In this document: positions 5,644 to 63,329 of the stretch, one piece after another | Layout of the letters: each line of letters opens with the position of its first letter | Numbering within the stretch: position 1 is the stretch's first letter | Source of the DNA: Emcibacter nanhaiensis | GTDB lineage: Bacteria > Pseudomonadota > Alphaproteobacteria > Sphingomonadales > Emcibacteraceae | Reading direction: 5' to 3' | Assembly: GCF_006385175.1 (NCBI RefSeq) | Contig: NZ_VFIY01000008.1 | Location: 1 to 64,000, forward strand | Length of the DNA stretch: 64,000 nt | The notes under the pieces: model-generated | What the model saw: the letters and a program-made list of their open reading frames with translations, nothing else | Databases searched by the model: none | What the model was told of the DNA's origin: nothing | Translations under genes and position numbers: made by a program

Positions 5644-5651
5644 GACTTTTC

Positions 5652-8642: not shown

Positions 8643-8662
8643 GATTATCTACTCCTAAGATA

Positions 8663-24145: not shown

Positions 24146-24179
24146 GCCATCCCGGGCCGCACGTCCGGTAAAACAATCC

Positions 24180-24213
24180 GAGAAAGGGCAAAATGGAAAT
24201 TTTGTCCTTTCTC
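24180..24213 (+). other. 15-bp intercistronic hairpin between coxL and coxD
   Basis: GAGAAAGGGCAAAAT (24180-24194) pairs with ATTTTGTCCTTTCTC (24199-24213) over a GGAA loop, with a single G-U pair. No T-run follows. It lies in the 99-bp gap between the catalytic genes and the assembly genes. It may stabilise the upstream mRNA 3' end or lower expression of coxDEF. Confidence 0.65.
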
Positions 24214-24244
24214 CTTGCCATGACCAAACATTGGAAAGCTTTTG

Positions 24245-32619: not shown

Positions 32620-32630
32620 GGTACTGGCCA

Positions 32631-33845: not shown

Positions 33846-33855
33846 AGTAAGAAAC

Positions 33856-37868: not shown

Positions 37869-37947
37869 GCGCTTGTAAAACCGCTGTCACAATAGGCGGC
37901 CAATTATTCTTGGTTTGGAATCTCATCAGAATAAGGTGCGCAGGGTT

Positions 37948-47670: not shown

Positions 47671-47755
47671 ACTTAAAATCCTCCATTTTGGCATGTTTGC
47701 CGGTTTGGTTTGACTGTTGCTGAATATTTTTGTCTTTCCAGGTATCTCCTTCAGC

Positions 47756-49081
47756 CTAGAGACCTGTTTCTGAACGCTTGCGGGTGCAGGTATCGATCAC
47801 CGCATAGAGTATTTTTTGAGCGCAGGGCATAAGGTCCGGCACATAGGTGGCCCCCATGCCGCCAAGCCCTTCGGCTATTTCTTCCGGGGAGCCCTCTGCC
47901 GGCCAGGGCCAGCCCATACGTGCTGTGGGAATGCCCATGCGCCGCAGGGCAGCGCCGTCTGTCTGACCGCCGAGCAAATCCGGGTCACGATAATTTTCAC
48001 CCTCAATATGTTCCCAGCCGCGACGGGCAGACTGGATAATCCAGTTGTCGGGATCAGTGGTGCCACCCGGTGTAGAGCCATACATTTCCCACTCCACTTC
48101 GAGATCGGGATGTTTCGCCTGAATATCCCGCATGAAGCTGGCTACCTGCGCCTTGACTTCGCCCGGGCTGGTACGTGGATTGATGCGAACGTCGAAATAG
48201 ATTTCCGTAGCGGCAGAGGGAAAGGCCGGACGCTCGGGCCAGCCGGCACGCACTGCCGAAATCCAGCCGTCGGGCCGGATTACGCCGGAAGTGTTGCGTT
48301 CGGTATATTCCTGGAGCCAGTCCTCGAGTTCGAGAATGAAACCGGCGGCCGGAACAATGGAACTCCTGAAGTCCGGCAGGCCGCGCGGCACACCGGCATA
48401 CCCCAGAGTGCCCCAGACCGTGACCTTGAACCAGCCCATGCCCGGCTCCTCATGATATACCCAGTTCCAGGGTTTCATGATAATGGCGTAATCCGGCGCC
48501 ATGCCGCGGTTAATCAGATGCTCCACGCCGTTTGACATCCCGGCATTATCGCGCCAGGGAATGGTGACCGGCATGCCGCCGTCGGCAAAGCCCAGATTGA
48601 TATCGCCGACCAAAGGAACGTCCGCATCGATCAGGGCATTGACCACCTCGGTCAGGGTCGCCACCATGGCCTTGGGGTTGGAAGAACCGAGCCCGTAAAC
48701 CCAGTCATCAACCATTTTCGCCTGCGGTTTCAGGTCCACATACTGTTTCGGACCGGCCCAGGGATAATCGCTTTCATCTCCTTCGAGATGGGTATCGATC
48801 GGTGCGTAAAGCAGCAGGGTCGCGCCGTCGCCGGTGCCCCGCAATTCGCCCAGCGTGTTGCCTGAGATGTCATTCATGGGATGGTAGGCGGCCTTCATGC
48901 CCATATTGCTCATATAGGACGTCATAAACTGGCTGGCGTCGGCTGTAGCCCCGGTCGGACTGTGAATATCGGTCAGGTCAAACAGAAGCTTCTTCAGGCG
49001 ATCCTGGTCCAGCTTTTCACATGCCTGGTCGTACCAGCGCTTCTGTTCTTGCGTGAAAGGTATCTGTGTTGTCGGTTCCAT
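47756..49081 (-). CDS. M20-type metallohydrolase-like protein with altered metal site
   Basis: 441 residues of the M20/ArgE-DapE fold: N-terminal LLFDLTDIHSPTGATADAS, a His-containing LYAPIDTHLEGDE and the dimerisation domain at about 195-310. Usual members have a bridging Asp in a GxxDxK motif and a Glu-Glu pair. Here the matching segments read YGLGSSNPKAMVATL and INLGFADGGMP, so key ligands seem replaced. It may be a divergent amidohydrolase or a non-peptidase. AGGGAG lies before the ATG at 49081. It follows the amidase by 22 bp in one operon. Confidence 0.75.
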   Translation of the reverse strand: MEPTTQIPFTQEQKRWYDQACEKLDQDRLKKLLFDLTDIHSPTGATADASQFMTSYMSNMGMKAAYHPMNDISGNTLGELRGTGDGATLLLYAPIDTHLEGDESDYPWAGPKQYVDLKPQAKMVDDWVYGLGSSNPKAMVATLTEVVNALIDADVPLVGDINLGFADGGMPVTIPWRDNAGMSNGVEHLINRGMAPDYAIIMKPWNWVYHEEPGMGWFKVTVWGTLGYAGVPRGLPDFRSSIVPAAGFILELEDWLQEYTERNTSGVIRPDGWISAVRAGWPERPAFPSAATEIYFDVRINPRTSPGEVKAQVASFMRDIQAKHPDLEVEWEMYGSTPGGTTDPDNWIIQSARRGWEHIEGENYRDPDLLGGQTDGAALRRMGIPTARMGWPWPAEGSPEEIAEGLGGMGATYVPDLMPCAQKILYAVIDTCTRKRSETGL

Positions 49082-49103: not shown

Positions 49104-50396
49104 TTACAGTTTGCTTTGCCAGCGGCCGGCCACATTGACCATCCAGTGACCGAAGCCGAGAATTTCCCTGTCCTGCCCCTGCCGGCCGATAATCTGCAGG
49201 CCGATCGGAAGCCCCTTCTCCCCTTCCTTCACAGGGAATCCGAGACAGGGCGTACCAAGCGCAGTCCACATCCGGTTAAAGACGGGATCTCCGGTGCTAT
49301 CGATGCCATAGGGGGCAATCCCCGGTGCGGAAGGGGTCAGCAGAAAATCACATTCGCCGAACAGACTATCCTGTTCGTTCACGCAGACTTTCTGGATATC
49401 CAGTGCCTCGAGATATTTTTCGGCCGGCAGATCGCGCCCCGCGGCAATGAATTGCTTGAGGACATCGCTGATCCTGTCAGCATGCTTTTCCACAACGGGA
49501 CCGAGGCAAATCCAGGCTTCCCGCATGTGAATCAGGCGCTGGGCTTCCCCGAGACGATCGAACAGCTCACTGCCCTCTACCCCCATCAGCTCGGCGCCGG
49601 CGTCCCGCAGAACATCCGCGGTTTCAAAAAATAGTTTCTGGGTTTCCGGGCTGGCCTGGTTCCAGGCCCCTGACCGGTAGAGCCCGATCCTCGGCGGTTC
49701 AGACGTCGGCTCGATATCCTTTGTCTCGCTCCCGAGAACACTGTCGAGCAGTTCCAGGTCTTCCACCGCCCGACCAAAACCGCCAAGCGTGTCCAGATGA
49801 TGGGCGGTATCGACCATACCACCGGTGTCATAGCGCTTGCGGGTCGGCTTGAAACCGATCACCCCGCAGAAAGACGCCGGCCGGATAACCGACCCCGCCG
49901 TCTGGGTGCCAAGTGTCAGGGGGACATGAAAGTCCGCCACCGCCGCGGCAGATCCGCTGGAGGATCCCCCCGGCGTATGATCCGGATTATGGGGATTGCG
50001 GGTCGGCCCCGGACGATAGGTGGCGAATTCGGCAGTGACAGTCTTGCCGAGAATTATGGCCCCGGCTTCCTTCAGCAGCCGGACACATTCGGCGTCTTCC
50101 CTTGGCTGGAAACCGTCGAAAGCATCACTGCCGTAGTCGGTCGGCATATCCGCCGTATCAATCACATCCTTGATCCCGACCGGGACGCCGTGCAACGGAC
50201 CGCTGGCAGCAGAACGGTCTCTTTCCCGCGCTTCGGCCAGAGCCTGTTCCGCGGCCACATAGGCCCAGGCCCGCACTGTCCCTTCCCGCGCTTCAATACG
50301 TTCAAGACAAGAGGTAACCAGGGCTTCCGAGGTGAGTTCCCCCCGGGCGATGGCCCGGGCGGCTTTTGTCGCAGAAAGTCTGAAGAGGTCACTCAT
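49104..50396 (-). CDS. Amidase-signature family amidase
   Basis: About 430 residues, hydrolysing a carboxamide to acid and ammonia through a Ser-cisSer-Lys triad. The lysine is in GVPVGIKDVID, the cis-serine in TPGGSSSGSAAAVA and the nucleophile region in LGTQTAGSVIRPASFCG. The ATG at 50396 is preferred; a GTG at 50408 that overlaps the upstream stop is an alternative. It is translationally close to the extradiol dioxygenase gene and may act on an amide in the same pathway. AS amidases also act in transamidation, which is less likely here. Confidence 0.88.
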   Translation of the reverse strand: MSDLFRLSATKAARAIARGELTSEALVTSCLERIEAREGTVRAWAYVAAEQALAEARERDRSAASGPLHGVPVGIKDVIDTADMPTDYGSDAFDGFQPREDAECVRLLKEAGAIILGKTVTAEFATYRPGPTRNPHNPDHTPGGSSSGSAAAVADFHVPLTLGTQTAGSVIRPASFCGVIGFKPTRKRYDTGGMVDTAHHLDTLGGFGRAVEDLELLDSVLGSETKDIEPTSEPPRIGLYRSGAWNQASPETQKLFFETADVLRDAGAELMGVEGSELFDRLGEAQRLIHMREAWICLGPVVEKHADRISDVLKQFIAAGRDLPAEKYLEALDIQKVCVNEQDSLFGECDFLLTPSAPGIAPYGIDSTGDPVFNRMWTALGTPCLGFPVKEGEKGLPIGLQIIGRQGQDREILGFGHWMVNVAGRWQSKL

Positions 50397-50404
50397 CCGC
50401 AAAC

Positions 50405-51280
50405 TCACTCCTCTTCCGGTGAATGATGCCCCCAGAGACGCGGCGAGTCATAGCTGCGCACGCTCCAGTTTTCATCAATGAGCAGACCGCCATAACCATA
50501 TTCGATCCCGAAACCGGACGGTGTCACGATGTAGAAGGACTGGACATGGTCATTGGTGTGACGGCCCATTTCCATGATCAGCGGCAGTTGCATTTCGCGC
50601 GCCACATCATAGGCATAACCGATATCATTGACGGATTTTGCCTCGATCATGACATGGTTGAATTCGCCGCCCTTGAAGTCACCGAACGGCTTCATGATGG
50701 CCAGGGAATGATGGCGGGCATTGCAATGATAGAAGGTGGCGTCCTTGTCGTCCCAGATGATGTAGTCCGAGAGTTTAAAGCCCAGCACCCGCTCGTAGAA
50801 CTTCTTGCTTTCCTCATAGTCCCTGACCACATAGACCACATGGCCAAGACCGAGGTCGCCGGTCTTGTAGCCGTCAATCCCGCGGGTCGGTTTGAAGGGA
50901 TACATTTCCCGTTGCGGGGCATAGAAAAGTTCCGATGGCGTGCCGCTGGCCGGATCGATAAACTGGTAAAGCTCGATGACCTTGCGCTCTTCCTTCAGAG
51001 CGTCCGTTCCTTTGGTGACTTCCACGCCGTAATCGCGTAGCCGGCCGACCAGGTCTTCCAGGTCCGCCAGGGATTTAGTTTCCCAGCCCACGGCTGCAAT
51101 GGAGTCCTCAGCCGCAGGATAGAGAGTAAAGCGATGATGATAGTCGTCAATCCTGAGATCCACCGCCTCGCTGTCGGCTCTCTGCAGGACTTCCATGCTG
51201 AAAATTCCCGTGGCGATCTCCAGCCATTCCTTCATATTGGTTACATTCAGGGCCAGATAGCCCAGTCCACTGACGCTCAT
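50405..51280 (-). CDS. Type I extradiol ring-cleavage dioxygenase (BphC/HsaC-like)
   Basis: 291 residues, the exact size of two-domain BphC-type enzymes that open a catechol next to the hydroxyls. The ligands are His in LGLGHVVYVV, His in FNHVMIEAKS and Glu in FGIEYGYGG, all at the family positions. GGAG precedes the ATG at 51280. It lies in the operon with reductase upstream and amidase downstream, near a Rieske oxygenase and two meta-cleavage hydrolases. Together these would dihydroxylate, cleave and hydrolyse an aromatic ring. The substrate is unknown. Confidence 0.9.
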   Translation of the reverse strand: MSVSGLGYLALNVTNMKEWLEIATGIFSMEVLQRADSEAVDLRIDDYHHRFTLYPAAEDSIAAVGWETKSLADLEDLVGRLRDYGVEVTKGTDALKEERKVIELYQFIDPASGTPSELFYAPQREMYPFKPTRGIDGYKTGDLGLGHVVYVVRDYEESKKFYERVLGFKLSDYIIWDDKDATFYHCNARHHSLAIMKPFGDFKGGEFNHVMIEAKSVNDIGYAYDVAREMQLPLIMEMGRHTNDHVQSFYIVTPSGFGIEYGYGGLLIDENWSVRSYDSPRLWGHHSPEEE

Positions 51281-51333
51281 TGTCTTGTCTCCTTTAGCAT
51301 TTCCACCACTTGTTATTTTTGCCGTGCCGGCGA

Positions 51334-52359
51334 CTACTCGCTGGGCACAAATTTTTCCGCATGTATATTTTCCGGTTTCAGTCCCGCGTCGAGCAGGAAG
51401 GACTGGGCGGCTTCGATCATGCCCGGCGGCCCGCAAAGGTAGGCGACCGCATTCTCATCGATTGCATCACTGGCAAGACTTGAAACAGGATTTCCAACAA
51501 GGATTCCCTCTTCCGCCTCCCCTTTATCGACGGAGATCCGGTTTTGCAGGGTCGGCATCCACTGTTGCCTGAGATCAAGTTCTTCGACATAGAAAAGGCC
51601 GTCCCGGTCCACGCAGCCAAAGCTGAGCAGGATATTCGGCTTTTTGCCGCTACGGACCCGGATCACATCCAGCATGGACATCATCGGGGCAAGCCCGGTC
51701 CCGCCGGCGATCATGATGTGTGGCGCCTTGACGCCGTCCCGCAGGAAGAAGGACCCGAAGGCGCCTTCGATTTCCAGCACATCATCCACCCGGGCCCGGT
51801 CCCGCAGGTAGGACGACATGACGCCGTCTTCCAGCACACGGATCAGCAGTTCAATTTTCGGCAGGTCCGCCGGCGTACTGGCAAAGGAATAGCTGCGAAA
51901 CTGTTCGGTTCCCGGAACCTTGACCTGAATGAACTGCCCCGGGATAAAATCAATCCAGTCCCCGTCGGCCAGTTCCATGCTCAGTTTCACCACATCACGG
52001 GACACCCATTCGATAGCATCGATAAAAGCGTTGGCCCGGACCGGCTGGTTGCTTCCGGCCGTACTGTCATAATCCAGTTCAAGCGTACAGTCGCTTTGCG
52101 GTGTGGTAATACAGATCAGACGCTGGCCTTCCTGCTGTTCGCTCTTCAGCAGGGAAGCCGCGACATCCCTGCGCATTTCAGCACTGCCCTCAACAAGTTT
52201 TGCCTGGCAGGCCGCGCAGCTTCCGCTCCTGCACTGATAGAGAAGCGGAACCTCCTGATCGAGCGCCACATCGAGAATATTCTCATCCTCGGCCACCTCG
52301 ATCCGGCGGCTTTCCCCGTCGGAAAAATTCAGCGTTACGGAATGTTTTACGCCTGACAT
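51334..52359 (-). CDS. Oxygenase reductase: 2Fe-2S / FAD / NAD(P)H, BenC-type
   Basis: 341-residue electron-transfer protein. The N-terminal plant-type ferredoxin has CRSGSCAACQAKL plus a distal Cys in RLICIT. The FAD domain has RSYSFAST. The NAD domain has IAGGTGLAPMMSML and YLCGPPGMIEAA. It passes electrons from NAD(P)H to an oxygenase, most likely the Rieske protein encoded just upstream (78-bp gap). A strong terminator lies between the two, so expression could differ. Confidence 0.92.
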   Translation of the reverse strand: MSGVKHSVTLNFSDGESRRIEVAEDENILDVALDQEVPLLYQCRSGSCAACQAKLVEGSAEMRRDVAASLLKSEQQEGQRLICITTPQSDCTLELDYDSTAGSNQPVRANAFIDAIEWVSRDVVKLSMELADGDWIDFIPGQFIQVKVPGTEQFRSYSFASTPADLPKIELLIRVLEDGVMSSYLRDRARVDDVLEIEGAFGSFFLRDGVKAPHIMIAGGTGLAPMMSMLDVIRVRSGKKPNILLSFGCVDRDGLFYVEELDLRQQWMPTLQNRISVDKGEAEEGILVGNPVSSLASDAIDENAVAYLCGPPGMIEAAQSFLLDAGLKPENIHAEKFVPSE

Positions 52360-52401
52360 ACCCTTTGTACCTTTTGGTTTTTCTTCAATTACCCTGAGAA
52401 G

Positions 52402-52430
52402 AAAAAAGGCCCTGCCTTGCGGCAGGACCT
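52402..52430 (-). terminator. Intrinsic terminator after the Rieske oxygenase gene
   Basis: On the minus strand AGGTCCTGCC-GCAA-GGCAGGGCCT forms a 10-bp stem (with one G-U-type mismatch) followed by a run of T. It is well formed and sits between the oxygenase and its presumed reductase. Confidence 0.85.
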
Positions 52431-52437
52431 CTCCTCT

Positions 52438-53781
52438 TTATTCTTCGATTTTTTCCACGAAATAGCCCAGCTTCTTGCCTTCCGCCAGACGACGCATGCG
52501 GATGCTGGACGCCTTGACAGACCCGTCCACGCCCCTGCCCGGTTTGGCAATGCCGCGATTATGGCGCGACGCCACCTTGCGCCAGGTGATCGGCGATACA
52601 TCGGTGTCGACAAGCTGTTCGTCGTCCCAGCCGGTGCCGTCCGCGTAGAAATCCTGCATGGCTTCACGGGCATATAGATCGCAGTCGTTGAATCCTTCCA
52701 GGCAAAGCGGTTTATAGAAAACGTCAAAGCGATACTGGAACGCTTTGCGCTCTTCCTCGGTGTTGCAGACCTTGACCAGGACTTCCCAATACTCATAGGT
52801 GTCGTCGGTGATCGGCACATACCATTCCAGCTGAACCACATGTTCTTCCGGCCAGTTTTCCACCATCAACACACCGGGAAGCACCACGGAAGTGCGGTAG
52901 AAGCGGCTGTTCAGGCCTTCAACTTTGAGATCGACCTTCTTGTTCTCGAGAATGGGTTCCCAGCGGTCGGTAAACAGCCACTGCATCAAGCCCTTGGGCT
53001 TGTCTTCCTCTTCCATGGTGGTGATACAGTCGTCACTGGCGGGGCGGATCCCCAACGGCAGTACCCAGTCCTTGGCATGGATAATGGAATTATCCTTGTG
53101 CACCAAGATATGGGCGTTATCAAAACCGTTTTCGCAGGCGATGCGCCAGTTGGCTTCACCGGTCCGGTGCATGCCGAGACAAACGGCATTGTCATCCAGC
53201 AGGCTGGGTGAAGCCGGCCACAGCGGATGGGGAAACTCTTCGCTGCTCTCCGGGAACCGGATCGGCAGGTCTTCCGAAAGCGGCGGCACATCTTCCAGCG
53301 GATAGTCATCTTCACGAACAAAGACAAAAATCATCCCGCCGACTTCTTCCACCGGATAGGAGGTGATACCGGTGGTGCCGATCAGCTTGTCATCAGGGTT
53401 GCCGACGATAGTGCTGAGATCGCCGTCGTCAAGATTGAAAGTAAAACCGTGGTACCAGCAGGAGATGGTGTTTTTGGTCAGGCACATGGGTTTGGAAGAA
53501 AGCCGCACGCCCCGGTGAATACACTGGTCTTTCAGGGCGTAAACCTTGCCGTCCACGCGACGCAGCACAATCGGAATACCGCAGATGGTGATCCCTTCAA
53601 CCTCTTCTTCTTTCAGCTCCTCGCTGAACAGGGCCGGATACCAGTGGTTGACAAAACCCCACTCCGCATCCTTGTAAGGCTGATACTGGCTCTGCGTGCG
53701 GGCGTCATTCTTCCTCGCCTCGCTGATGCCGTGCTTGCCACCTTCTCCCGAACGGCGCCGCACCGGTTTTACTTCATTCAT
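52438..53781 (-). CDS. Rieske non-heme iron oxygenase, CarAa-like terminal oxygenase
   Basis: 447 residues. The Rieske cluster ligands are QCIHRG and CWYHG (about 92-118). The mononuclear iron site is in ENGFDNAHILVHKDN (Hx4H), with a later carboxylate. Overall sequence resembles carbazole 1,9a-dioxygenase CarAa (GFVNHWYPALFS, LEGFNDCDLYAREAMQDFYADG and WRKVASRHNRGI match remembered CarAa segments). An extra N-terminal segment of about 35 basic residues and a C-terminal tail make it longer than CarAa (384). It probably starts attack on an aromatic ring; substrate unknown. Confidence 0.88.
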   Translation of the reverse strand: MNEVKPVRRRSGEGGKHGISEARKNDARTQSQYQPYKDAEWGFVNHWYPALFSEELKEEEVEGITICGIPIVLRRVDGKVYALKDQCIHRGVRLSSKPMCLTKNTISCWYHGFTFNLDDGDLSTIVGNPDDKLIGTTGITSYPVEEVGGMIFVFVREDDYPLEDVPPLSEDLPIRFPESSEEFPHPLWPASPSLLDDNAVCLGMHRTGEANWRIACENGFDNAHILVHKDNSIIHAKDWVLPLGIRPASDDCITTMEEEDKPKGLMQWLFTDRWEPILENKKVDLKVEGLNSRFYRTSVVLPGVLMVENWPEEHVVQLEWYVPITDDTYEYWEVLVKVCNTEEERKAFQYRFDVFYKPLCLEGFNDCDLYAREAMQDFYADGTGWDDEQLVDTDVSPITWRKVASRHNRGIAKPGRGVDGSVKASSIRMRRLAEGKKLGYFVEKIEE

Positions 53782-53815
53782 TTACAGTCTCCTCGTCTAT
53801 ACAAAATATTCTGGT

Positions 53816-54700
53816 TCAGGAGGCCAGAAAGGCGTTCACCACCTCGTCATGTTCCTCCGGTCGTTCCCACTGCGGCCAGTGGGCACACCCTTCCATGATG
53901 TGTTTCTGTGAATTGGGGATCAGTTCCGCAAGACGGTCCGCGGCATCAACGCCATGAATGGGATTCTTGTCGCTCCACAGGACCAGGGCCGGACATTCGA
54001 TTTTCGGAAAATCTTCTTCCGTGAAATAGAATTCGGCAATGTTCGGCGCGAACAGATAGTCATAATATTTCAGCAGTGCGTCGCGGGTTTCCGGAATCGA
54101 CCAGAGTGCATAGCGCAACTGCACCAGTTCATCGGTCACGCCGCCCAGAGGCATCAGCCATTCCAGCCGCTTGCGCAACAGTTCAGGGGTGGGGTTCATC
54201 AGAGCGTTGACTGACGTTTCCCGCAGAGCGTCCAGGTCATGGTCGCCTTCGTGAACCTTGCTGGGGTCGAAGCTCATTCCCCAGGCCGTATTCAGAATAA
54301 CCTTTTCGGTGCGATCAGGATGGTTGATGGCCATATCCATGGCGATCCAGCCACCCAGGGATTCTCCTTCGACAGACGCTTTTTCAATGCCGAGATGATC
54401 CATCAGGTTGAGAAGCTGATCGGTGAACTGGCTGAGCCAGTGATCCTTATCATTCGGCCCGGCCTTGGAAAAATCCGGCCGGGAGGACATGCCATGCCAG
54501 ATGAAATCAATGGCATAGGGATGACTTGATTTGGACAGGGCCACCATGTTGCGGGAATAGGTTTCCGCATGGCCGCCACCGCCGTGCAGCAGGAACAGCG
54601 GCTGTTTGTCGTTAACCACCTCAATGGTCCGTGTGCGGTATTTACCCGTGTCGTAGAAACGCGTTTCGGTGCCCAGAAGGTCTACGTGAATTGAGTTCAT
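53816..54700 (-). CDS. Alpha/beta hydrolase, meta-cleavage-product-hydrolase-like
   Basis: 294 residues. LFLLHGGGGHAETY gives the oxyanion loop, the nucleophile Ser is in VEGESLGGW, the acid Asp in VLWSDKNPIHG and the His in MEGCAHWPQWERP. It resembles hydrolases that cleave C-C bonds of ring-fission products (BphD/CarC-like), but the GGGG oxyanion loop differs from the usual HGSGPG. It begins the minus-strand operon with the Rieske gene, 34 bp apart, and shares a divergent promoter with the maleate isomerase gene. Confidence 0.82.
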   Translation of the reverse strand: MNSIHVDLLGTETRFYDTGKYRTRTIEVVNDKQPLFLLHGGGGHAETYSRNMVALSKSSHPYAIDFIWHGMSSRPDFSKAGPNDKDHWLSQFTDQLLNLMDHLGIEKASVEGESLGGWIAMDMAINHPDRTEKVILNTAWGMSFDPSKVHEGDHDLDALRETSVNALMNPTPELLRKRLEWLMPLGGVTDELVQLRYALWSIPETRDALLKYYDYLFAPNIAEFYFTEEDFPKIECPALVLWSDKNPIHGVDAADRLAELIPNSQKHIMEGCAHWPQWERPEEHDEVVNAFLAS

Positions 54701-54790
54701 CTTAATCCTCTAAATTTTGCTTTTTCTGATCAGTCAATGTCGACTGCCATACCCGTAACTAATCGGTAATAGATTTAAAATAGAATTTCA

Positions 54791-54806
54791 ATTGATTTTT
54801 TATTGA
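54791..54806. promoter_or_regulatory. Shared motif ATTGATTTTTTATTGA (copy 1)
   Basis: Lies in the 224-bp divergent region between the alpha/beta hydrolase and maleate isomerase genes. It consists of two ATTGA half-sites 11 bp apart and is embedded in TTTCAAT-N9-ATTGAAA. It is identical to the copy at 60694. Candidate site for the MarR protein encoded at 59272-59823 or another local regulator. Confidence 0.6.
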
Positions 54807-54924
54807 AAATCTATAAATCTATTCTACACAATCGATGAGGCGTTGATTTCTTTAGGTTTTCAGCGCCTTTCACCAAAGAAACAATGCCCGCACGGAGCGG
54901 GCAAATATCAGGGACAGGTCCAGA

Positions 54925-55674
54925 ATGACTCAAAAATTAATCAGAATCGGGCAGATCGTGCCCAGCTCGAACACCACCATGGAAACGGAAATACCGGCGA
55001 TTTTTCGGGCCCGGGAATCGATCGAACCGGAACGGTTCAGCTTTCATTCCAGCCGCATGCGTATGCTGAAAGTCACCAAGGAAGAACTGGAGGAAATGGA
55101 CAACCAGTCGCTGCGTTGCGCGGCAGAACTGGCAGACGCGCGTATGGACGTGATGGGATACGCTTGCCTGGTCGCGATCATGAGCCGCGGCAACGGCTAT
55201 CACAATACGGCAGAAAAGAACCTGATTGCCGCCAGCAGGGAAAATAACTGTGACGCGTCTATTGTCACCAGCGCCGGCGCACTGTGTGAAGCCCTCCATG
55301 ATCTTGGCGCCCGCAAGGTGGCCCTGATTGCCCCCTATATGCGCCCCCTCACCAATCTGGTGATTGAGTATCTGGCCGCCGAAGGGATCGAGACCCTGGA
55401 CAGCATCAGTCTGGAAATTGACGACAATCTTGAAGTTGGCGCCCGGGATCCGCTTGCCCTTGTGGATATTTTCCAGGACCTGAAAACCGATGGCGCCGAC
55501 GCTGTCGTGTTGTCCGCCTGCGTTCAGATGCCGTCGCTGGCCGCCGTAGACAGGGTCCAGGCCATGACCGACCTGCCGGTCGTTACCTCCAGTATCTCCA
55601 CGGCCTACGTGATGATGAAACGGCTTGGCCTCAAGACCGTCGCCCCCGGCGCCGGCAAACTGCTTTCTGCTTGA
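54925..55674 (+). CDS. Maleate cis-trans isomerase (NicE-like)
   Basis: 249 residues of the Asp/Glu racemase superfamily, converting maleate to fumarate. The N-terminus IGQIVPSSNTTMETEIPAI and FHSSRMRM match maleate isomerases such as NicE of nicotinate degradation. Both catalytic cysteines are present: VMGYACLVAIMS (about residue 77) and VLSACVQMPS (about 194). It is monocistronic, divergent from the hydrolase-Rieske operon. Maleate would arise from a maleamate or maleylpyruvate intermediate; the enzyme that makes it is not certain here. Confidence 0.92.
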   Translation: MTQKLIRIGQIVPSSNTTMETEIPAIFRARESIEPERFSFHSSRMRMLKVTKEELEEMDNQSLRCAAELADARMDVMGYACLVAIMSRGNGYHNTAEKNLIAASRENNCDASIVTSAGALCEALHDLGARKVALIAPYMRPLTNLVIEYLAAEGIETLDSISLEIDDNLEVGARDPLALVDIFQDLKTDGADAVVLSACVQMPSLAAVDRVQAMTDLPVVTSSISTAYVMMKRLGLKTVAPGAGKLLSA

Positions 55675-55684
55675 CTTAAACTGG

Positions 55685-55727
55685 CCCCCGCACGTCTTAC
55701 CTTCCCTGGTGCGGGGGTCCCTTTTTT
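55685..55727 (+). terminator. Terminator after maleate isomerase gene
   Basis: CCCCCGCA (55685-55692) pairs with TGCGGGGG (55710-55717), then TCCC and a T6 run. It ends right at the stop of the convergent oxidoreductase gene. Confidence 0.8.
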
Positions 55728-56680
55728 CAAAGCGTGTGATCAATCGCCAGTTTGCCAAAGACATGATTCCTGCCGGCCAGCAGGGCATGGGCATCGGATA
55801 TTTCCCCGAGGGCAAAAACCCGGTGAATATGGGGGCGAAATTTTCCTGCTTCTACAAGATCTGCAAGCCCCTTCAGCTTACGCCGTTCGCGCAGTGAGAA
55901 CTGGAATTTTACAGTGAGGTTCTTGCGATAGGCCCTGTCCAGGTTGCCGGTCGGCGGCGCGATGGAGATCATGGTGCCGAAATCCCCCACAGCGGGAATG
56001 GATTTTTCAAGAAGCCCCCGCCCGACCGTGTCATAGACAACATCCACACCTTCCGGGCATAACTCCTCTACGGCCCGGACAAATTCCTCGCTGTCATAGG
56101 CGATCACCCTGCGCACGCCGATTTCCCGCAGGTGGCCGGTCATGCTGCTGTGGCAGGTGGCGAAGACTTTGGCACCGCGTGCCAGGGCGATCTGGACGGC
56201 AAGCGCCCCCACACCTCCGGTCCCGCCGTGAATGAGAACCGCATCACCGTCCCTCACCGGGTACAGACAGCTGAGCGCATCCCACGCCGTCCCGCCCGCC
56301 AGCGGCAGCGCGGCAGCCTCGACAAAGGACAGTCCCTCAGGCATGTGCCAGATGACCCTCTCGTCCACCAGATGCTCGTCGGCGTGGGTTCCTGAGGGAG
56401 AATTGAAATCAGCCGCATAGAAAACCCTGTCGCCGACAGCAAAATCGGCGACGTCCGGACCGGTTTCGATGACTTCTCCGGCCGCGTCAAACCCGGGCAC
56501 GGCCGGCGGCCGGATACCCACATCCAGGGATCCGGCGCGGATCTTCATATCGATAGGATTGACCGACGACGCCCGGACCGCCACCTTGACCTGCCGCCCC
56601 GTCGGGGCAGGTAAAGGCTCTATCTCCACAGGTTTCAGGACCTCCGGACCGCCAAAAGCGTCATATCTGACAGCGCGCAC
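55727..56680 (-). CDS. MDR-family quinone oxidoreductase-like / zinc-free alcohol dehydrogenase-like
   Basis: 317-residue medium-chain dehydrogenase/reductase. The N-terminal GroES-like part shows RASSVNPIDMKIRAGSLD and PGFDAAGEV. The NADPH site is GGTGGVGALAVQIA. No structural zinc cysteines are visible, so it belongs to the QOR branch that reduces quinones or enones. It starts at GTG, 4 bp after the MatB-like gene, and is the last gene of the hydrolase-ligase-oxidoreductase operon. It might reduce an unsaturated intermediate. Confidence 0.85.
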   Translation of the reverse strand: MRAVRYDAFGGPEVLKPVEIEPLPAPTGRQVKVAVRASSVNPIDMKIRAGSLDVGIRPPAVPGFDAAGEVIETGPDVADFAVGDRVFYAADFNSPSGTHADEHLVDERVIWHMPEGLSFVEAAALPLAGGTAWDALSCLYPVRDGDAVLIHGGTGGVGALAVQIALARGAKVFATCHSSMTGHLREIGVRRVIAYDSEEFVRAVEELCPEGVDVVYDTVGRGLLEKSIPAVGDFGTMISIAPPTGNLDRAYRKNLTVKFQFSLRERRKLKGLADLVEAGKFRPHIHRVFALGEISDAHALLAGRNHVFGKLAIDHTL

Positions 56681-56684
56681 CCCG

Positions 56685-58211
56685 CTATCCCGCGAACAGG
56701 TCCCGATGGATCTGACGCAGCTCGTTTTTCTGCACCTTGCCCATGGTGTTGCGGGGAAGTTCCTCCATAAAGAAGGTCTTTTTGGGTTGCTTGAAGCGGG
56801 CCAGCTTGCCCTTCAGGGCGTCAATGATATCCTCTTCCGAAATCTTTCCGTCCGGTCCACGCACCACAATGGCCACGACCGCTTCACCGAAATCATTGTG
56901 CGGCACGCCAATGACAGCTGATTCCTTCACGCCGGCCAGGTCATCAATAACCGCCTCGATCTCCTTGGGGTAGACGTTATAGCCGCCGGAAATGATCAGG
57001 TCCTTGCTGCGCCCGACAATGGTCACCCTGCCGTCTTCAGACCTGGTGGCCAGATCACCGGTGCGGAAATAGCCGTCATCCGTGAATTCCTCGGCTGTCT
57101 TTTCCGGCATTTTCCAGTAGCCTTTGAACACATTGGGACCGGTAATTTCCAGATTTCCCACTTCACCGGCCGGCAACATTTGACCTTCATCATCCACCAC
57201 CCGGACGCTGACACCCGGCAGGGCCATCCCCACAGTCCCGGCGACACGGGCATCATTTTCATAGGGATTGGAGGTAATCATGATAGCCTCAGTCATGCCA
57301 TAACGTTCCAGGATTCTTTTCCCGGTACGTTGCTCAAATTCCGTGAAGGTCTCCGCCTGCAGCGGCGCCGACCCGGAAATAAACAGGCGCATGCCCTGGG
57401 CAAGCTCCGGCGTGAAACGCGGGTCTCCCAGCAGCCGTGTGTAGAAGGTGGGAACGCCCATGAATACCGTCGCCTTCGGTAAATTCTCCAGCACCAGATC
57501 CAGGTCGAATTTTGCCAGGAAGATCATCGGCGACCCGTTCAGCAGTGCCAGATGGCAGCCGACAAACAGACCGTGGGCGTGAAAAATCGGCAACGCATGC
57601 AGCAACACATCCCCCGGCTCCCACTGCCAGACCTGATGCAAAGCCTGCACATTGCTGGACAGGTTCTTGTGGGTCAGCATTGCCCCCTTGGACCGCCCGG
57701 TCGTACCGGAAGTATAAAGGATGGCGGCAATATCCTCATCGGCCATCTCCTCTATTGCTTCATCCGGCTTAACGACGGCTGCGGCATCGGTCAGACTTCC
57801 CGTGCCATTACTGTCCAGGGTGAGGATATGGGCGACATCTACATCGGCCGCCACCTGCTTCAGTGCTGGTTCCTTTTCCGGATCACAAACCAGCAGCCCC
57901 GGTGTCGCATCACTCAGGAAGTAACGAACTTCCTCCTGTGTGTAGGCGGTATTGAGGGGAATGAAAATCACCCCCTTGCGCAGACAGGCAAGATAAAGAA
58001 AAAGCATTTCCGGCGACTTGTCCACCTGAACCACGACCCGGTCGCCCCGGCCAACCTGCAGTTCAGTCAACAATGCAGCTATCCGGGCGGTATACTCCTC
58101 CAGATCACCGAAACTGTATCTGACCGTCCCGTCCGGATCGATAATCACCGGCCGTTCAGATTTTCCGGCATAGCTGTTCTGAAAGAGCGCAAAGAGGTTC
58201 GCGTTACTCAT
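56685..58211 (-). CDS. MatB-like acyl-CoA ligase (malonyl-CoA synthetase family)
   Basis: 508 residues. The phosphate loop is ILYTSGTTGRSKGAMLTHKN. MatB-like segments are LFISGSAPLQAETFTEF, RYGMTEAIMITSNPYE and the C-terminal LPRNTMGKVQKNELR with the catalytic Lys. The match to malonate-CoA ligases is strong over the whole length. It may activate malonate or a related small dicarboxylic acid produced by ring breakdown. It lies 29 bp downstream of the meta-cleavage hydrolase gene. Specificity is inferred from similarity. Confidence 0.85.
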   Translation of the reverse strand: MSNANLFALFQNSYAGKSERPVIIDPDGTVRYSFGDLEEYTARIAALLTELQVGRGDRVVVQVDKSPEMLFLYLACLRKGVIFIPLNTAYTQEEVRYFLSDATPGLLVCDPEKEPALKQVAADVDVAHILTLDSNGTGSLTDAAAVVKPDEAIEEMADEDIAAILYTSGTTGRSKGAMLTHKNLSSNVQALHQVWQWEPGDVLLHALPIFHAHGLFVGCHLALLNGSPMIFLAKFDLDLVLENLPKATVFMGVPTFYTRLLGDPRFTPELAQGMRLFISGSAPLQAETFTEFEQRTGKRILERYGMTEAIMITSNPYENDARVAGTVGMALPGVSVRVVDDEGQMLPAGEVGNLEITGPNVFKGYWKMPEKTAEEFTDDGYFRTGDLATRSEDGRVTIVGRSKDLIISGGYNVYPKEIEAVIDDLAGVKESAVIGVPHNDFGEAVVAIVVRGPDGKISEEDIIDALKGKLARFKQPKKTFFMEELPRNTMGKVQKNELRQIHRDLFAG

Positions 58212-58240
58212 AATAAACTCCTCTACGGGGCTTTCACCCC

Positions 58241-59068
58241 TTACTCTTCATCCAGGAAATTCTGCACCAGCTGGTTAAAGCGCGCCGCATGCTCAATCTG
58301 AGTCCAGTGGCCGCAGTTGCCGAACATGTGCAGTTGCGAGTTCCTGATATGCCGATGCAGGTTCAGGGAGACTTCCGGCGACACCACAATATCATCCCGG
58401 CCATGGATCAGCAGGGTTTCATGGGTAATATTCTGCAGTTGGGCAACGGAAAGGACCTGGGCGTCGAGCCAGCGCTGGCGCGGCACCGGGAAAACCCGCT
58501 CGAAAGTCTCCTGGGCGCCGGGGCGGATCGTCGCCCGGTAACGCAGCTCGGCCAGTTCGTCAGTCACCAGGCCGCGATCATAGGCCATGATATCCATGAT
58601 CCGTTTCATATTTTCCACAGAAGGGGTATAGCCCCAAAGTTCTTCCAGTTCGGAATTAACCTCAAGCGGCCAGCCACCGGGCCCCATCAGAACCAAACGG
58701 CCGAAGCGATCCGGATACTGGCTCGCCAGCCACATGGACAGAGAGCCGCCGAAGCTGTTGCCAACCAGATGCGCCTTTTCAAGGCCCAGCCCATCCATCA
58801 ACGCCACGATCTGGTCGATCCAGCTGGACATGAAATCAAACTCAAAGTCCCCGGGGGTTTCGGTGTAGCCAAAACCCACCAGGTCCGGGACAATGACCCG
58901 GAAGCGAGTGGACAGCAGGGGAATCATGCCCCGCCAGTTGGCCCAGCCGGAAACCCCGGCGCCGGACCCGTGCAGCAGAATCACAACGTCACCTTCGCCC
59001 GCATCATGATAGTTCGTCAGATAACCGCAGGTTTCAATTTTCTGACCGATTTCCGGATTATTTTCCAA
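58241..59068 (-). CDS. Meta-cleavage-product hydrolase (BphD/DmpD-type alpha/beta hydrolase)
   Basis: 275 residues, the typical length of C-C bond hydrolases acting on 2-hydroxy-6-oxo-dienoates. The oxyanion motif LLHGSGAGVSGWANW matches the family HGSGPG(A) loop, with nucleophile Ser in LVGNSFGGSLS, acid in HGRDDIVV and His in GNCGHWTQIEH. It heads the operon with the MatB-like ligase and the oxidoreductase. It is the best candidate partner for the extradiol dioxygenase at 50405-51280. Confidence 0.9.
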   Translation of the reverse strand: MENNPEIGQKIETCGYLTNYHDAGEGDVVILLHGSGAGVSGWANWRGMIPLLSTRFRVIVPDLVGFGYTETPGDFEFDFMSSWIDQIVALMDGLGLEKAHLVGNSFGGSLSMWLASQYPDRFGRLVLMGPGGWPLEVNSELEELWGYTPSVENMKRIMDIMAYDRGLVTDELAELRYRATIRPGAQETFERVFPVPRQRWLDAQVLSVAQLQNITHETLLIHGRDDIVVSPEVSLNLHRHIRNSQLHMFGNCGHWTQIEHAARFNQLVQNFLDEE

Positions 59069-59175
59069 TGCCCTAACTCCATTTGCCCTGTTCTGGACAC
59101 CTGCAGCGCTCCGAAATTCCTCCGGTTGCAGGTCTCCGTTGATATGTCTTGGAGTATTTTATATATTTATTTTCT

Positions 59176-59202
59176 ATTGATTTTCAATTTATTTTTTATT
59201 GA
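59176..59202. promoter_or_regulatory. Shared motif (copy 2): three half-sites at 11-bp step
   Basis: ATTGA at 59176, ATTTA at 59187 and ATTGA at 59198. The segment 59187-59202 differs by one base from ATTGATTTTTTATTGA. It lies 108 bp upstream of the hydrolase start at 59068, between it and the MarR gene. Confidence 0.55.
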
Positions 59203-59271: not shown

Positions 59272-59823
59272 CTATTCGGCCGGCTTCTGATTATAGGTCG
59301 AAGAAATTCGCCCGCTTTCCTCGTAAACACCTGTCAGCACCGACAAAAGCTGGGTCGCGTCTTCCAGGCGCTCCTGAACATCGGCGATCGCAGACAGATT
59401 CTTGATCAGCAACTCAGACCGCAGATCACTATATTCGTTGGTCAGCTTCTGGCCCTCTTCCGTCACCGAATAGGTAAAGGTCTTGGAGCCCTTTTCCTTC
59501 TTCTTTTCGATCAATTTCGCCGTTTCAAGTTTACGCAGACAATACTGAATATTGGGAATATCGTCACGATTGATCATCCGGGCGATGGTTGCGGCTGCCT
59601 TGGGCCGGTTCTGCATGCGGATAACATGCAGAATTAGATGCTCTGCAAACCCGATATCCAGTGGGGAAACCACTTCAACTGCACTTTGCACCCAGCGGAT
59701 GAAGGCTTCATAATAGCGGATGACCGCATATTCAAATTCCGTTACCTTGAGCTCGGGAATGGTCTTGGCCAGATGCCAGCGCCTGTAGTAGGTCGGATCC
59801 AGATTTTCGTCTTTCGTCATCAT
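59272..59823 (-). CDS. MarR-family winged-helix transcriptional regulator
   Basis: 183 residues. The winged helix at about 55-130 includes LDIGFAEHLILHVIRMQNRPKAAATIARMINRDDIPNIQYCLRKLE and the wing KKKEKGSKTFTYSVTEEG. N- and C-terminal helices form the dimer interface. The start may be either of two adjacent ATG codons (59823 or 59820). The gene is flanked by a racemase-like gene and a hydrolase operon on the same strand. It is the most central candidate to bind the ATTGATTTTTTATTGA sites. TTGA half-sites also occur in its own 96-bp upstream region. Confidence 0.9.
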   Translation of the reverse strand: MMTKDENLDPTYYRRWHLAKTIPELKVTEFEYAVIRYYEAFIRWVQSAVEVVSPLDIGFAEHLILHVIRMQNRPKAAATIARMINRDDIPNIQYCLRKLETAKLIEKKKEKGSKTFTYSVTEEGQKLTNEYSDLRSELLIKNLSAIADVQERLEDATQLLSVLTGVYEESGRISSTYNQKPAE

Positions 59824-59919
59824 TCTTCCTCTGCAAAGCTTTAAACTTCAATTATAGTTCTACATAGCCTCAATCAATTTTTCAAAGAAAATCAAAGCTT
59901 TCTTGCAACAGTACACTGT

Positions 59920-60681
59920 TCAGGCAAACTTGCATTCAACGCCTGAAAACAAATTCTCATCCTTTTCCCGGGGCGGCTGGTAATAGCGCGGACTATGTGC
60001 CATCCCCAGATCCAGGAACATTTCACAGGTCTTAAGCGCAATGAGCCCCGGGTTCAGTACCGGCACCGGCAGGTTGGCCGACAGAAAATCATAGGACTGA
60101 TACATGGTGGTCGAGCCCAGAATAATGACATCGGCGCCGTCTTTCTCAATCGCGGCCTCGCCTTCACGCTTTAGGAGGTCGAAAACAACTTCCTCCTTGC
60201 CCGCCAGCAATTCCTCCGCATCCGGATTGACACCAATGGCGCGTATCGAGGCCAGTCGGGTCTGCAGCCCCTGCTCGCGAATGGTCTTCATATACATGGG
60301 CTTCCATCTGTCCCACATCGTCAGGATGGAAAATTTCTGACCGGTCATGCAAGCCGTCAGCAATGTGGCTTCACAGGGACCGATCACCGGTATGGAGAGA
60401 CAGGATCGGAGGGCATGCAGACCGGAATCACTCATGGAGTTGATGCAAACCGCATCATATCCTTCTTTTTCGGCGGCCATGCCGGCGTCAAGGACAAAGG
60501 CATCTGCCAGGGTGAATTCATAAAAGGAATCCAGGATCTTTGCCCCGTTGCGGGGGGCAACAAAATCAATGGTTATATCGGACCGGCGCAAATTTTCCGG
60601 AATCTGCTGTTCAAACATCCCTATCGCCTCCGCAGGAAGCGGCACGGGCAATATCATTTTGATCTTTTTGGGCTCATTCAT
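59920..60681 (-). CDS. Asp/Glu/hydantoin racemase-superfamily protein lacking the second cysteine
   Basis: 253 residues. The first catalytic cysteine is present in YDAVCINSMSDSG (about residue 79). The second position, normally LGC followed by a small residue, reads IILGSTTMYQSYDF, so Cys is replaced by Ser/Thr. One-cysteine members of this fold include decarboxylases, so racemisation by the two-base mechanism is unlikely. The gene starts a minus-strand unit upstream of MarR and diverges from the AraC gene. The substrate is unknown. Confidence 0.82.
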   Translation of the reverse strand: MNEPKKIKMILPVPLPAEAIGMFEQQIPENLRRSDITIDFVAPRNGAKILDSFYEFTLADAFVLDAGMAAEKEGYDAVCINSMSDSGLHALRSCLSIPVIGPCEATLLTACMTGQKFSILTMWDRWKPMYMKTIREQGLQTRLASIRAIGVNPDAEELLAGKEEVVFDLLKREGEAAIEKDGADVIILGSTTMYQSYDFLSANLPVPVLNPGLIALKTCEMFLDLGMAHSPRYYQPPREKDENLFSGVECKFA

Positions 60682-60693
60682 ATTACATTTTCC

Positions 60694-60709
60694 ATTGATT
60701 TTTTATTGA
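60694..60709. promoter_or_regulatory. Shared motif ATTGATTTTTTATTGA (copy 3)
   Basis: Identical to copy 1, and 13 bp from the racemase-like start, in the 216-bp divergent region with the AraC-family gene. Its closeness to the start codon suggests repression. Nothing else was recognised in 60682-60897. Confidence 0.6.
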
Positions 60710-60897
60710 TATTTAATTTATATTACATGCCAGAAATTGGAAATGTAAAGAAAAATGGAGGATAAATTCCGTCCTCCGACACGGACGGAGTGCGGATACA
60801 AAAATAAAAATCCGCTGACACCTCCGGGCCGGCAGGCGATGTTTGCAAGACATGCACAATATAGCCTGTCCACATAGACAGATGACAAGGCAAGAAG

Positions 60898-61869
60898 ATG
60901 TATTCAGGGTATTTTTCATCTTTACCTGTTACCAGTTCCGGTTCCCTGGACGAGACGCGGGAAATCGTCTCCAGCCTGTTTTGTTCCCATACACTCAGGA
61001 AAGAACAACGGGACCCGGGTCTTTACTACTGGCACAAAAGAATGAAGCTTGACCAGTTCTCTCTGGTCGAAATGAGCTATGGCGCCGATGTCGCCATAGA
61101 ACCCGGCGAACTGGAAAAATTCTATCTGATCCAGATTCCCCTCAATGGTCATGCCGAAATAAGTTGCGGCGGGCGCACCGTCACCTCGACGCCGCAGCAT
61201 GCCTCCATTCCAAACCCGGCCCGCTCTCTGAAAATGAGATGGAGCAGCGACTGCCGGAAGCTTGTCCTGAAGATAGAGCGCGCAAAGCTGGAACAACACT
61301 TGTCCAATCTGCTCGGCAGTCCGATCTCCCGAAGCATCGATTTCGACCTGGACCTCGACCTCACCTCGGTAAACGGAGCAAGCTGGAAAAGATCGCTTGG
61401 CTTCCTGCTGGAGTCCATCAAACACAACCCGGACCTGGTCAAGCATCCGTTTATGGTCAAGGAGATGGAACAACTGGTTATGACCAGCCTGCTGCATATG
61501 CAGCCCCACAATTACAGTGACTCGCTGCATTCCCGCACCTGTGCGGTCGCGCCAAGGCATGTAAAGCTTGCCGAGGAATTTATTCTGGAGAATGCCGCCA
61601 GCCCCATTACCATTGAAACCCTGATCGATGTCACCGGCGCCAAGGCCAACCAGCTTTTCAGCGGCTTTCGCCAGTTCCGGGGCACCACGCCAATGCGTTT
61701 TCTTGCTTCTGTCCGACTGGACAGGGCGCATCGCGATCTGATGAAGGCGACCGCGGACGATACGGTCACGGAAATCGCCACCAAATGGGGTTTTACCCAG
61801 TTGGGCCGTTTCTCGGTAGTGTATCGCAAGAGATATGGCATCTCCCCGTCCGAAACCCTGAGAGCCTGA
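60898..61869 (+). CDS. AraC-family transcriptional regulator
   Basis: 323 residues. The N-terminal AraC-binding-like sensory domain covers about 40-210 (FSLVEMSYGADVAIEPGELEKFYLIQIPL). The C-terminal double helix-turn-helix covers about 220-320, with ITIETLIDVTGAKANQLFSGFRQF and the signature DTVTEIATKWGFTQLGRFSVVYRKRYGISPSE. It lies 141 bp upstream of the flavoprotein monooxygenase gene, in the same direction, and is the probable activator of it. Relatives regulate aromatic catabolism. Confidence 0.92.
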   Translation: MYSGYFSSLPVTSSGSLDETREIVSSLFCSHTLRKEQRDPGLYYWHKRMKLDQFSLVEMSYGADVAIEPGELEKFYLIQIPLNGHAEISCGGRTVTSTPQHASIPNPARSLKMRWSSDCRKLVLKIERAKLEQHLSNLLGSPISRSIDFDLDLDLTSVNGASWKRSLGFLLESIKHNPDLVKHPFMVKEMEQLVMTSLLHMQPHNYSDSLHSRTCAVAPRHVKLAEEFILENAASPITIETLIDVTGAKANQLFSGFRQFRGTTPMRFLASVRLDRAHRDLMKATADDTVTEIATKWGFTQLGRFSVVYRKRYGISPSETLRA

Positions 61870-62010
61870 TTACTTTCCCTGTTTCATCCACAATTCCCCA
61901 GTTTCTGCATAATTGCTGAAGTCTCGGAATAGGCACCCTTCCCCGCGCGCGACATACTGATGGTCATGACACAAAAGCGAAGAATTCCTAGAGAAAGGAA
62001 AGGAAGTTTC

Positions 62011-63234
62011 ATGAAAGTGACCATTATCGGCGCTGGCCAGGCAGGCCTGCAACTGGGTATTGGACTGCTCCACAGCGAGATCGAAGTGGAAATCGTCTCC
62101 AACCGGACCGGTGAAGAAATCAGGACGGGACGGATCATGTCGAGCCAGTCCATGTACCAGGAAGCCCTGGACCACGAGCGGGAACTGGGCCTGAATTTCT
62201 GGGACGATGAAGCGCCCGCCTATAACAATGTCAACATGATGATCGGAAACTCAGCCAAACCGATGATCGACTGGCACGCACCGCTGGACGGTGCCGGCAA
62301 CTCCATCGACCAGCGGGTCAAAATGCCGCGCTGGATGGAAGAGTTTGAAAAACTCGGCGGCACATTAACCATTCTTGAAGCCGGGATCGAACATCTGGAA
62401 GACTATTGCAGCACCAGCGATCTGGTCATTGTTGCGTCCGGCAAGGGGGAAATCGGCAGCCTGTTCGAAAAGGATGTGGAAAAATGCCAGTTTCATCAGC
62501 CCATGCGCGGCCTGTCCCTGGTGTACTTTACCGGCATGGAACCCTATGAGCACACCCCAAGCCTGAACATCAACGTCAACCCGGGCATCGGCGAATGCGT
62601 CACCTTCCCTGGCCTGACCACCAGCGGCGCCTGCGACATCATGACCTTTGAAGCTGTCCCCGGCGGCGAAATGGATGTCTGGCACGAAGTCAAAACTCCG
62701 GACCAGCATCTGGAAATGACAAAGACATTGCTGGACAGGTTCTTCCCCTGGCTCGGAGAACGCTGCCGGAACATCAAACTCACCGACGACAATGCCCGAC
62801 TTACCGGCCGCTTCCCGCCGACGGTGCGCAAACCCATCGGCTACCTGCCGTCCGGCCAGATTGTGCTCGGTATCGCCGACGCCATCTGCCTGAACGACCC
62901 GATCACCGGCCAGGGCTCCAACAACGCCAGCAAGGCGGCTGCCATCTACCTGAAACGCATTGTCGACAATCGCGGCAGGGCCTTTGACGAAAACTGGATG
63001 CAGGGTACTTTCGATGCCTACATGGACTATGCCCACTGGGTCATCAAGTTCACCAATACTTTCCTGACCCCGCTGCCGGACCACATTGTGGAAATCTTCG
63101 GCGCAGCGCAAAGCAACCAGGCCATCGGCCGTATCTTTGCAGGCGCTTTCAACGACCCGCGCCGGGTAGATCCTTGGCTCTATGACCCTGCCGAAGCCAG
63201 GAAATTCATCCAGGCGCACAGCGAAGCTGCCTGA
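62011..63234 (+). CDS. Styrene/indole monooxygenase family FAD oxygenase (StyA-like)
   Basis: 407 residues, close to StyA/IndA (about 415). The N-terminal Rossmann FAD site is VTIIGAGQAGLQLGIGLL. The second conserved segment is DLVIVASGKGEIGSLF, and the late FAD loop is DAICLNDPITGQGSNNASKA. These group E monooxygenases accept reduced FAD from a separate reductase and epoxidise vinyl arenes or indole. The ATG at 62011 has AAAGGAAG upstream; a longer start 51 bp earlier is rejected. The StyB-like reductase gene converges from the other side. Confidence 0.88.
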   Translation: MKVTIIGAGQAGLQLGIGLLHSEIEVEIVSNRTGEEIRTGRIMSSQSMYQEALDHERELGLNFWDDEAPAYNNVNMMIGNSAKPMIDWHAPLDGAGNSIDQRVKMPRWMEEFEKLGGTLTILEAGIEHLEDYCSTSDLVIVASGKGEIGSLFEKDVEKCQFHQPMRGLSLVYFTGMEPYEHTPSLNINVNPGIGECVTFPGLTTSGACDIMTFEAVPGGEMDVWHEVKTPDQHLEMTKTLLDRFFPWLGERCRNIKLTDDNARLTGRFPPTVRKPIGYLPSGQIVLGIADAICLNDPITGQGSNNASKAAAIYLKRIVDNRGRAFDENWMQGTFDAYMDYAHWVIKFTNTFLTPLPDHIVEIFGAAQSNQAIGRIFAGAFNDPRRVDPWLYDPAEARKFIQAHSEAA

Positions 63235-63299
63235 TGGCGACAGATTAACTTTCTCCCAGACGGGATACCCAACCTCATAGACCATCCCGTTAAACTTTA

Positions 63300-63327
63300 C
63301 AGCACCCCCGCGGGGGTGCTGTTTTTT
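63300..63327. terminator. Strong terminator between monooxygenase and flavin reductase
   Basis: CAGCACCCCCG and CGGGGGTGCTG form a perfect palindrome at 63300-63321, followed by T6. It ends the plus-strand monooxygenase transcript and lies just beyond the minus-strand reductase stop. Confidence 0.88.
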
Positions 63328-63329
63328 CG

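Follow-up and report, generated by a model that had tools for sequence, protein, structure and literature searches.

The closest described relative of the system considered here is the quinoline system of Pseudomonas putida 86, in which OxoO (structure 1z01), the oxygenase component of 2-oxo-1,2-dihydroquinoline 8-monooxygenase, was both named and deposited as an 8-monooxygenase. Our search of the open-access literature found no gene assigned to the release of the ring nitrogen after 2-oxoquinoline 8-hydroxylation. Aromatic amino groups can be removed by hydrolysis, as is done by the 5-nitroanthranilate aminohydrolase (PMC10306065) of Bradyrhizobium JS329 (5k8m-5k8p).

Several other systems resemble parts of the locus. 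SkaA of Rhodococcus produces 3-methyloxindole from skatole, and the steps of bacterial skatole breakdown past this compound are stated to be unresolved (PMC13101512). Acinetobacter piscicola p38 has the StyA-type gene1687/1688, where skatole also induces a gene for a Rieske alpha subunit that is three gene numbers off (PMC11434297). Both have in common with our locus a StyA-type flavoprotein with a flavin reductase, but the ring-hydroxylating oxygenase of the Rhodococcus skatole cluster is multi-component. The lumichrome (lum) cluster of Nocardioides simplex likewise has heterocycle hydrolases and a Rieske oxygenase followed by extradiol cleavage; however, that oxygenase has alpha and beta subunits and a separate ferredoxin, and the substrate and the lower route differ (PMC12746152). 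The riboflavin/lumichrome route was rejected for our locus because of these subunits and its other gene set. The auxin iad pathway was also rejected, because IadDE is an alpha3beta3 enzyme whose structure (9o71) matches our oxygenase weakly (E 1e-6).

The window is the whole 64,000-nucleotide stretch of Emcibacter nanhaiensis DNA that was analysed (NZ_VFIY01000008.1, positions 1-64,000; assembly GCF_006385175.1). A first-pass annotation had described a ring-cleavage pathway with a CarAa-type oxygenase at 50405-59068. The genes that it listed were all found as intact ORFs near the coordinates it had given, each with a significant Pfam/NCBIfam match, and chance is excluded as the source of this gene set. 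The cluster is bigger than this interval and extends both ways, up to 63.8 kb. On one side are the M20-like gene, the amidase and a TonB receptor; on the other, at 59272-63812, are a MarR regulator, an Asp/Glu-racemase-family protein, an AraC regulator, StyA and a flavin reductase. A malonyl-CoA synthetase and an MDR oxidoreductase inside the interval had gone unmentioned. The minus-strand genes are densely packed, and the sole break is the plus-strand maleate isomerase gene. The features are as follows.

45253-47694, minus strand: TonB-dependent receptor, last gene of the core operon (ORF)
47756-49081, minus strand: M20-like protein without all five canonical M20 metal ligands (alignment, fold, profile)
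49104-50408, minus strand: amidase-signature hydrolase, Lys80, GGSSSGS (PF01425, E 7e-81, 273 bits; motifs)
50405-51280, minus strand: type I extradiol dioxygenase, BphC-like (BphC model)
51334-52359, minus strand: 2Fe-2S/FAD/NAD reductase, BenC/OxoR type (Pfam/NCBIfam)
52438-53781, minus strand: OxoO-type Rieske oxygenase (75% identical to P. putida 86 OxoO, 1z01)
53816-54700, minus strand: alpha/beta hydrolase Hyd1, meta-cleavage-product-hydrolase type (Pfam/NCBIfam)
54791-54806, plus strand: operator-like element ATTGATTTTTTATTGA, between Hyd1 and maleate isomerase (motif search)
54925-55674, plus strand: maleate cis-trans isomerase, Cys81, Cys199 (4fq7, 294 bits)
55727-56680, minus strand: MDR (quinone oxidoreductase-like) reductase (Pfam/NCBIfam)
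56685-58211, minus strand: malonyl-CoA synthetase MatB (NF005702; 4fuq, 569 bits)
58241-59068, minus strand: alpha/beta hydrolase Hyd2, HsaD/BphD-like (NF045632, 199 bits)
59165-59202, plus strand: two more operator-like copies (59165-59180 and 59187-59202), upstream of Hyd2 (motif search)
59272-59823, minus strand: MarR-family regulator, winged helix (PF13463)
59920-60681, minus strand: Asp/Glu-racemase-family protein, allantoin-racemase fold (fold match; residue comparison)
60694-60709, plus strand: operator-like element ATTGATTTTTTATTGA, between the racemase-like gene and AraC (motif search)
60898-61869, plus strand: AraC/XylS-family regulator (family match)
62011-63234, plus strand: StyA-type flavoprotein, indole-monooxygenase branch (7zca/7z4x, 451 bits, versus 3ihm, 119)
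63330-63812, minus strand: flavin reductase (PF01613, E 9e-39)

The starts given for the extradiol dioxygenase (51280) and for the M20-like protein (49081) are the most plausible ones.

The Rieske oxygenase matches PF11723, the 'homotrimeric ring hydroxylase' family (E 2e-66), which it has in common with CarAa, the carbazole 1,9a-dioxygenase. The annotation was right as to the CarAa family, but its label 'CarAa-type' is wrong. The closest solved relative is 1z01 (E 1e-244, 815 bits), with 331 of 441 positions identical over the full length, as counted from the alignment, whereas CarAa comes second among solved families (about 310 bits) and the CarAa proteins of carbazole plasmids are about 40% identical to the window protein. 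The Rieske motif is present (CIHRG...CWYH), and around Asp221 and His228 the mononuclear-iron region does not differ from that of 1z01. The first-pass annotation had proposed a phylogeny of the Rieske alpha subunit; in the tree, the window protein groups with alpha- and gammaproteobacterial proteins from loci where a type I extradiol dioxygenase is close by, while the protein of P. putida 86 falls inside a Pseudomonas group. As judged from sequence, the window oxygenase is an OxoO ortholog, and this identity of the core enzyme is well supported.

The remaining assignments of that annotation stood up. The reductase is of the BenC/MmoC type (259-270 bits), and the hydrolases are two HsaD/BphD-like alpha/beta hydrolases, with Hyd1 scoring 117 bits. 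The ring-cleavage enzyme, a single chain of two domains, matches the BphC model (270 bits, E 2e-80) and carries the triad His147/His209/Glu260; such a type I extradiol dioxygenase is at odds with the carbazole route, as had been pointed out. A carbazole-type pathway was therefore rejected: the identity of the oxygenase is too low, and the cluster has this enzyme in place of a LigB-type CarBaBb. The amidase and maleate isomerase assignments were borne out by the scores listed above; the M20-like protein has an M20 family score of 25 bits only.

The M20-like protein is unusual. When it is aligned with M20 proteins encoded in this genome, the positions of the five metal ligands (H, bridging D, E, D/E, H) are occupied by P, N, G, K and G/M, and many residues near the lost ligand positions are invariant in 65 relatives. 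An AlphaFold2 model (mean pLDDT 90.7) has as its nearest fold the 5-nitroanthranilate aminohydrolase mentioned above (Z 40.5 over 406 residues, rmsd 2.6; next family 34.6), to which there is also a profile match (E 2e-30). Hydrolytic deamination of an aromatic ring is what this nearest relative does, so a part in removing nitrogen is suggested, but no more than suggested. Of the M20 metal ligands the aminohydrolase still has several, whereas all five are replaced in the M20-like protein, and the loss of a site that its relative partly keeps makes deaminase activity uncertain. The protein may be a metal-free aromatic deaminase.

Scanning genome contigs gave 134 OxoO relatives, and the best 80 of these loci were compared; some are short contigs, so that a gene missing from a locus is weak evidence. 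In most of the 80 loci OxoO is followed by the reductase, the M20-like protein and the amidase, and the M20-like proteins of OxoO loci are 63-79% identical to the window protein. This core recurs in many proteobacteria. TonB genes (43-50% identical) adjoin OxoO in many of the 80 loci, as do MhpD/F/E, and an MhpB-type dioxygenase is near the core in Burkholderiaceae, Thauera, Acinetobacter and L041. The large subunit of quinoline 2-oxidoreductase (Qor) adjoins the core in three of the 80 loci (L041, L079 and L084); the Qor of L079 matches 1t3q with 1070 bits, and a maleate isomerase lies alongside it and the core. The first-pass annotation could name no pathway for this combination of genes. 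This no longer holds, as the OxoO-reductase-amidase-M20 core is found in many genomes and twice beside both Qor and a type I extradiol dioxygenase (L079, L084). Our search of the open-access literature found no description of the window cluster itself. Because of this recurrent core and the 75% identity of OxoO, we class the window locus with the P. putida 86 quinoline system, as a member or a variant that has feeder genes of the indole type, which the first-pass annotation had not linked to it. The two have in common the oxygenase and an adjoining reductase gene, and an AraC-type regulator is close by at Pseudomonas OxoO loci, as it is here. The window genome differs in having no Qor, and the window cluster differs in its MarR regulator and common DNA element, its close type I extradiol dioxygenase, maleate isomerase, MatB and StyA. 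Genome samples added no further clusters: the window genome was the only one with OxoO among 385 genomes of the class, and the only one matching the M20-like profile among 398 of the phylum.

Some of the 80 loci deserve a remark of their own. L029 and L030 each have two OxoO genes. The cluster in L031, a record titled as a Klebsiella pneumoniae MAG, resembles those of the freshwater gammaproteobacterial MAGs L008, L011 and L019, with which it also groups in the OxoO tree; the Klebsiella label may be wrong.

Three promoter regions of the window cluster, upstream of Hyd1-OxoO, of Hyd2-MatB and of the racemase-like gene, have a 16-bp element in common that is found nowhere else in the genome. ATTGATTTTTTATTGA is exact at two of them (see the list), and a one-mismatch copy lies upstream of Hyd2; counting this variant, there are three occurrences genome-wide, every one in the cluster. 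MarR orthologs (40-61% identical) are beside OxoO in 33 of the 80 loci. A form of the element with 11-bp phasing is present in 25 of these 33 loci versus 2 of the 47 others, and the general form ATTGA-N6-ATTGA gives 29 matches in the 33 MarR loci and three in the 47 others. As controls, permuted words averaged 0.48, and with other spacers, up to 12 bases long, there were at most four matches per set, except for 12 at a spacer of 10. Many loci have their matches upstream of OxoO or of some other gene of the pathway, at distances of tens to a few hundred bases. That a shared-element regulon exists is well supported, and MarR probably acts at the element, as its co-occurrence with it suggests. 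The element also provides a handle for recognising further such clusters.

Among solved structures the window StyA is nearest to one of the indole monooxygenase type (451 bits) and distant from styrene monooxygenase (3ihm, 119 bits). It has the S, Q and M of the indole monooxygenase fingerprint S46-Q48-M50-V/I73-I76-A96 (PMC13101512); of the five positions compared, it differs at 73, where classic indole monooxygenases do not have its Tyr, and at 76, which is Val. StyA is present in 18 of 50 OxoO genomes versus 10 of 397 other Pseudomonadota (14-fold, Fisher p 2e-12, with samples unmatched for taxonomy), and it lies within about 10 kb of OxoO in 10 of the 80 loci. The window genome has a single OxoO and no Qor; a search of the genome for Qor gave as its best match the large subunit of CO dehydrogenase (33%). 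A molybdenum hydroxylase encoded at 20-24 kb was considered as Qor and rejected, because it is a genuine large subunit of CO dehydrogenase (1447 bits, which exceeds the cut-off); maturation-like ORFs come after it in this aerobic CO dehydrogenase region (20233-27731).

Among the genes that could handle the products, the MatB (NF005702, 792 bits against a curated cut-off of 558) and maleate isomerase (both catalytic Cys kept) assignments are strong on sequence grounds. In three genomes MatB and StyA are about 2.7 kb apart. StyA is associated with MatB (p 0.007), and MatB with Hyd2 (p 0.013), within the type I extradiol group, values that count for less because the loci are partly related. For this reason, and because MatB is near OxoO without StyA in L037, L040 and L042, the StyA-MatB link is no more than suggestive. 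Contig C10 of the window genome encodes an MhpE homolog (582 bits) and an adjoining MhpD-like hydratase. Two more VOC/extradiol-like proteins are encoded in the window at 1-1009 and 11304-12305, the second weakly like HpaD/catechol 2,3-dioxygenase (56 bits).

From this gene content we infer a route from oxindole or 2-quinolone through a catechol acid and meta-cleavage to hydroxypentadienoate and malonate or maleate. The StyA-type monooxygenase and flavin reductase would convert an indole (indole, skatole or a relative) to a 2-oxindole; in some other genomes Qor would instead supply 2-oxoquinoline. OxoO and its reductase would then hydroxylate the carbon peri to the nitrogen, that is C8 of 2-oxoquinoline, as is known for the P. 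putida 86 enzyme, or C7 of oxindole. The amidase would open the lactam to a 2-amino-3-hydroxyphenyl acid, and the M20-like protein would exchange the amino group for a hydroxyl. The type I extradiol enzyme would cleave the resulting 2,3-dihydroxyphenyl acid, and either Hyd1 or Hyd2 would release 2-hydroxypenta-2,4-dienoate, passed to MhpDFE encoded elsewhere, and a diacid. A C2 side chain would give malonate, which MatB would convert to malonyl-CoA, and a C3 side chain would give maleate, which the isomerase would convert to fumarate. The exchange of the amino group and the natural substrate are the least certain parts of this scheme. The conserved gene set supplies named candidates for every step, including a conserved M20-fold protein without a metal site. 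A bolder reading, which we propose tentatively and consider unlikely as a whole, is that this protein would be the first of its fold to carry out hydrolytic aromatic deamination without metal. It would then supply the step that is missing on the way from 8-hydroxy-2-oxoquinoline or 7-hydroxyoxindole to the catechol acids, the release of nitrogen, and indoles and skatole would be degraded by a route from oxindole to malonate that has not been described before.

Two proteins have no firm place in the scheme. The nearest fold of the racemase-like protein is allantoin racemase (Z 28.2), and of its catalytic Cys pair Cys79 is invariant while the second is replaced by an invariant Ser190. The MDR reductase could, by analogy, reduce a coumarin-type double bond, as HcdE does with 7-hydroxycoumarin and XenA with 8-hydroxycoumarin (PMC7913881).

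We give a probability of about 0.6 to the locus being one catabolic regulon for benzo-fused lactams (oxindole/2-quinolone), built round an OxoO-type Rieske monooxygenase. The linkage of StyA, the absence of Qor and the presence of MatB are the reasons for the oxindole reading. Further observations count against the account. No copy of the element accompanies StyA and its flavin reductase, which are neighbours of AraC, and the genome has a second StyA, on contig C15, with a fuller indole-monooxygenase fingerprint and in an indole-type cluster. An OxoO that is 75% identical to the quinoline enzyme could also belong to a plain pathway of the P. putida 86 type for quinoline (coumarin), starting from 2-oxoquinoline, with StyA, AraC and MatB as unrelated neighbours. 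The maleate isomerase, which also occurs in the Qor-bearing L079, would fit its cis-2,3-dihydroxycinnamate route, but such a pathway would have to be reconciled with a genome without Qor, with the strong enrichment of StyA among OxoO genomes and with the common element in the MatB promoter, and we think it unlikely.

The family relationship to CarAa raises another alternative, namely angular dioxygenation at the ring-junction carbon, after which the nitrogen ring would open by itself to a dihydroxyphenyl amide, the amidase would free the ammonia and the M20-like protein would do something else. A different Rieske enzyme opens a quinoxaline-dione in this way in lumichrome degradation (PMC12746152), and an M20-like protein without metal ligands would be in keeping with the idea. 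The naming and deposition of the P. putida 86 enzyme as an 8-monooxygenase argue the other way, as does an aromatic aminohydrolase being the nearest relative of the M20-like protein, and we regard this alternative as quite improbable. Degradation of carbazole, dibenzofuran or dioxin, which CarAa as second-closest solved family would bring to mind, is highly improbable: the identity is low, the extradiol enzyme is not of the LigB type, and the lactam, maleate and malonate enzymes would be left without explanation.

A few other features of the window and genome were observed. The region of the second StyA (2994-9249 of locus L118) also has AraC, SDR and TonB receptor genes as neighbours, and the start of this receptor is much like that of a receptor just past the window end (L088, 3924-6302). 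Sets of matches of equal length and near-equal score on contigs C4, C6, C10 and C17 and on C11, C17 and C18 suggest repeated segments in this genome. Finally, the ORFs at 30871-40864 of the window resemble, by eye, a type II secretion gene set.
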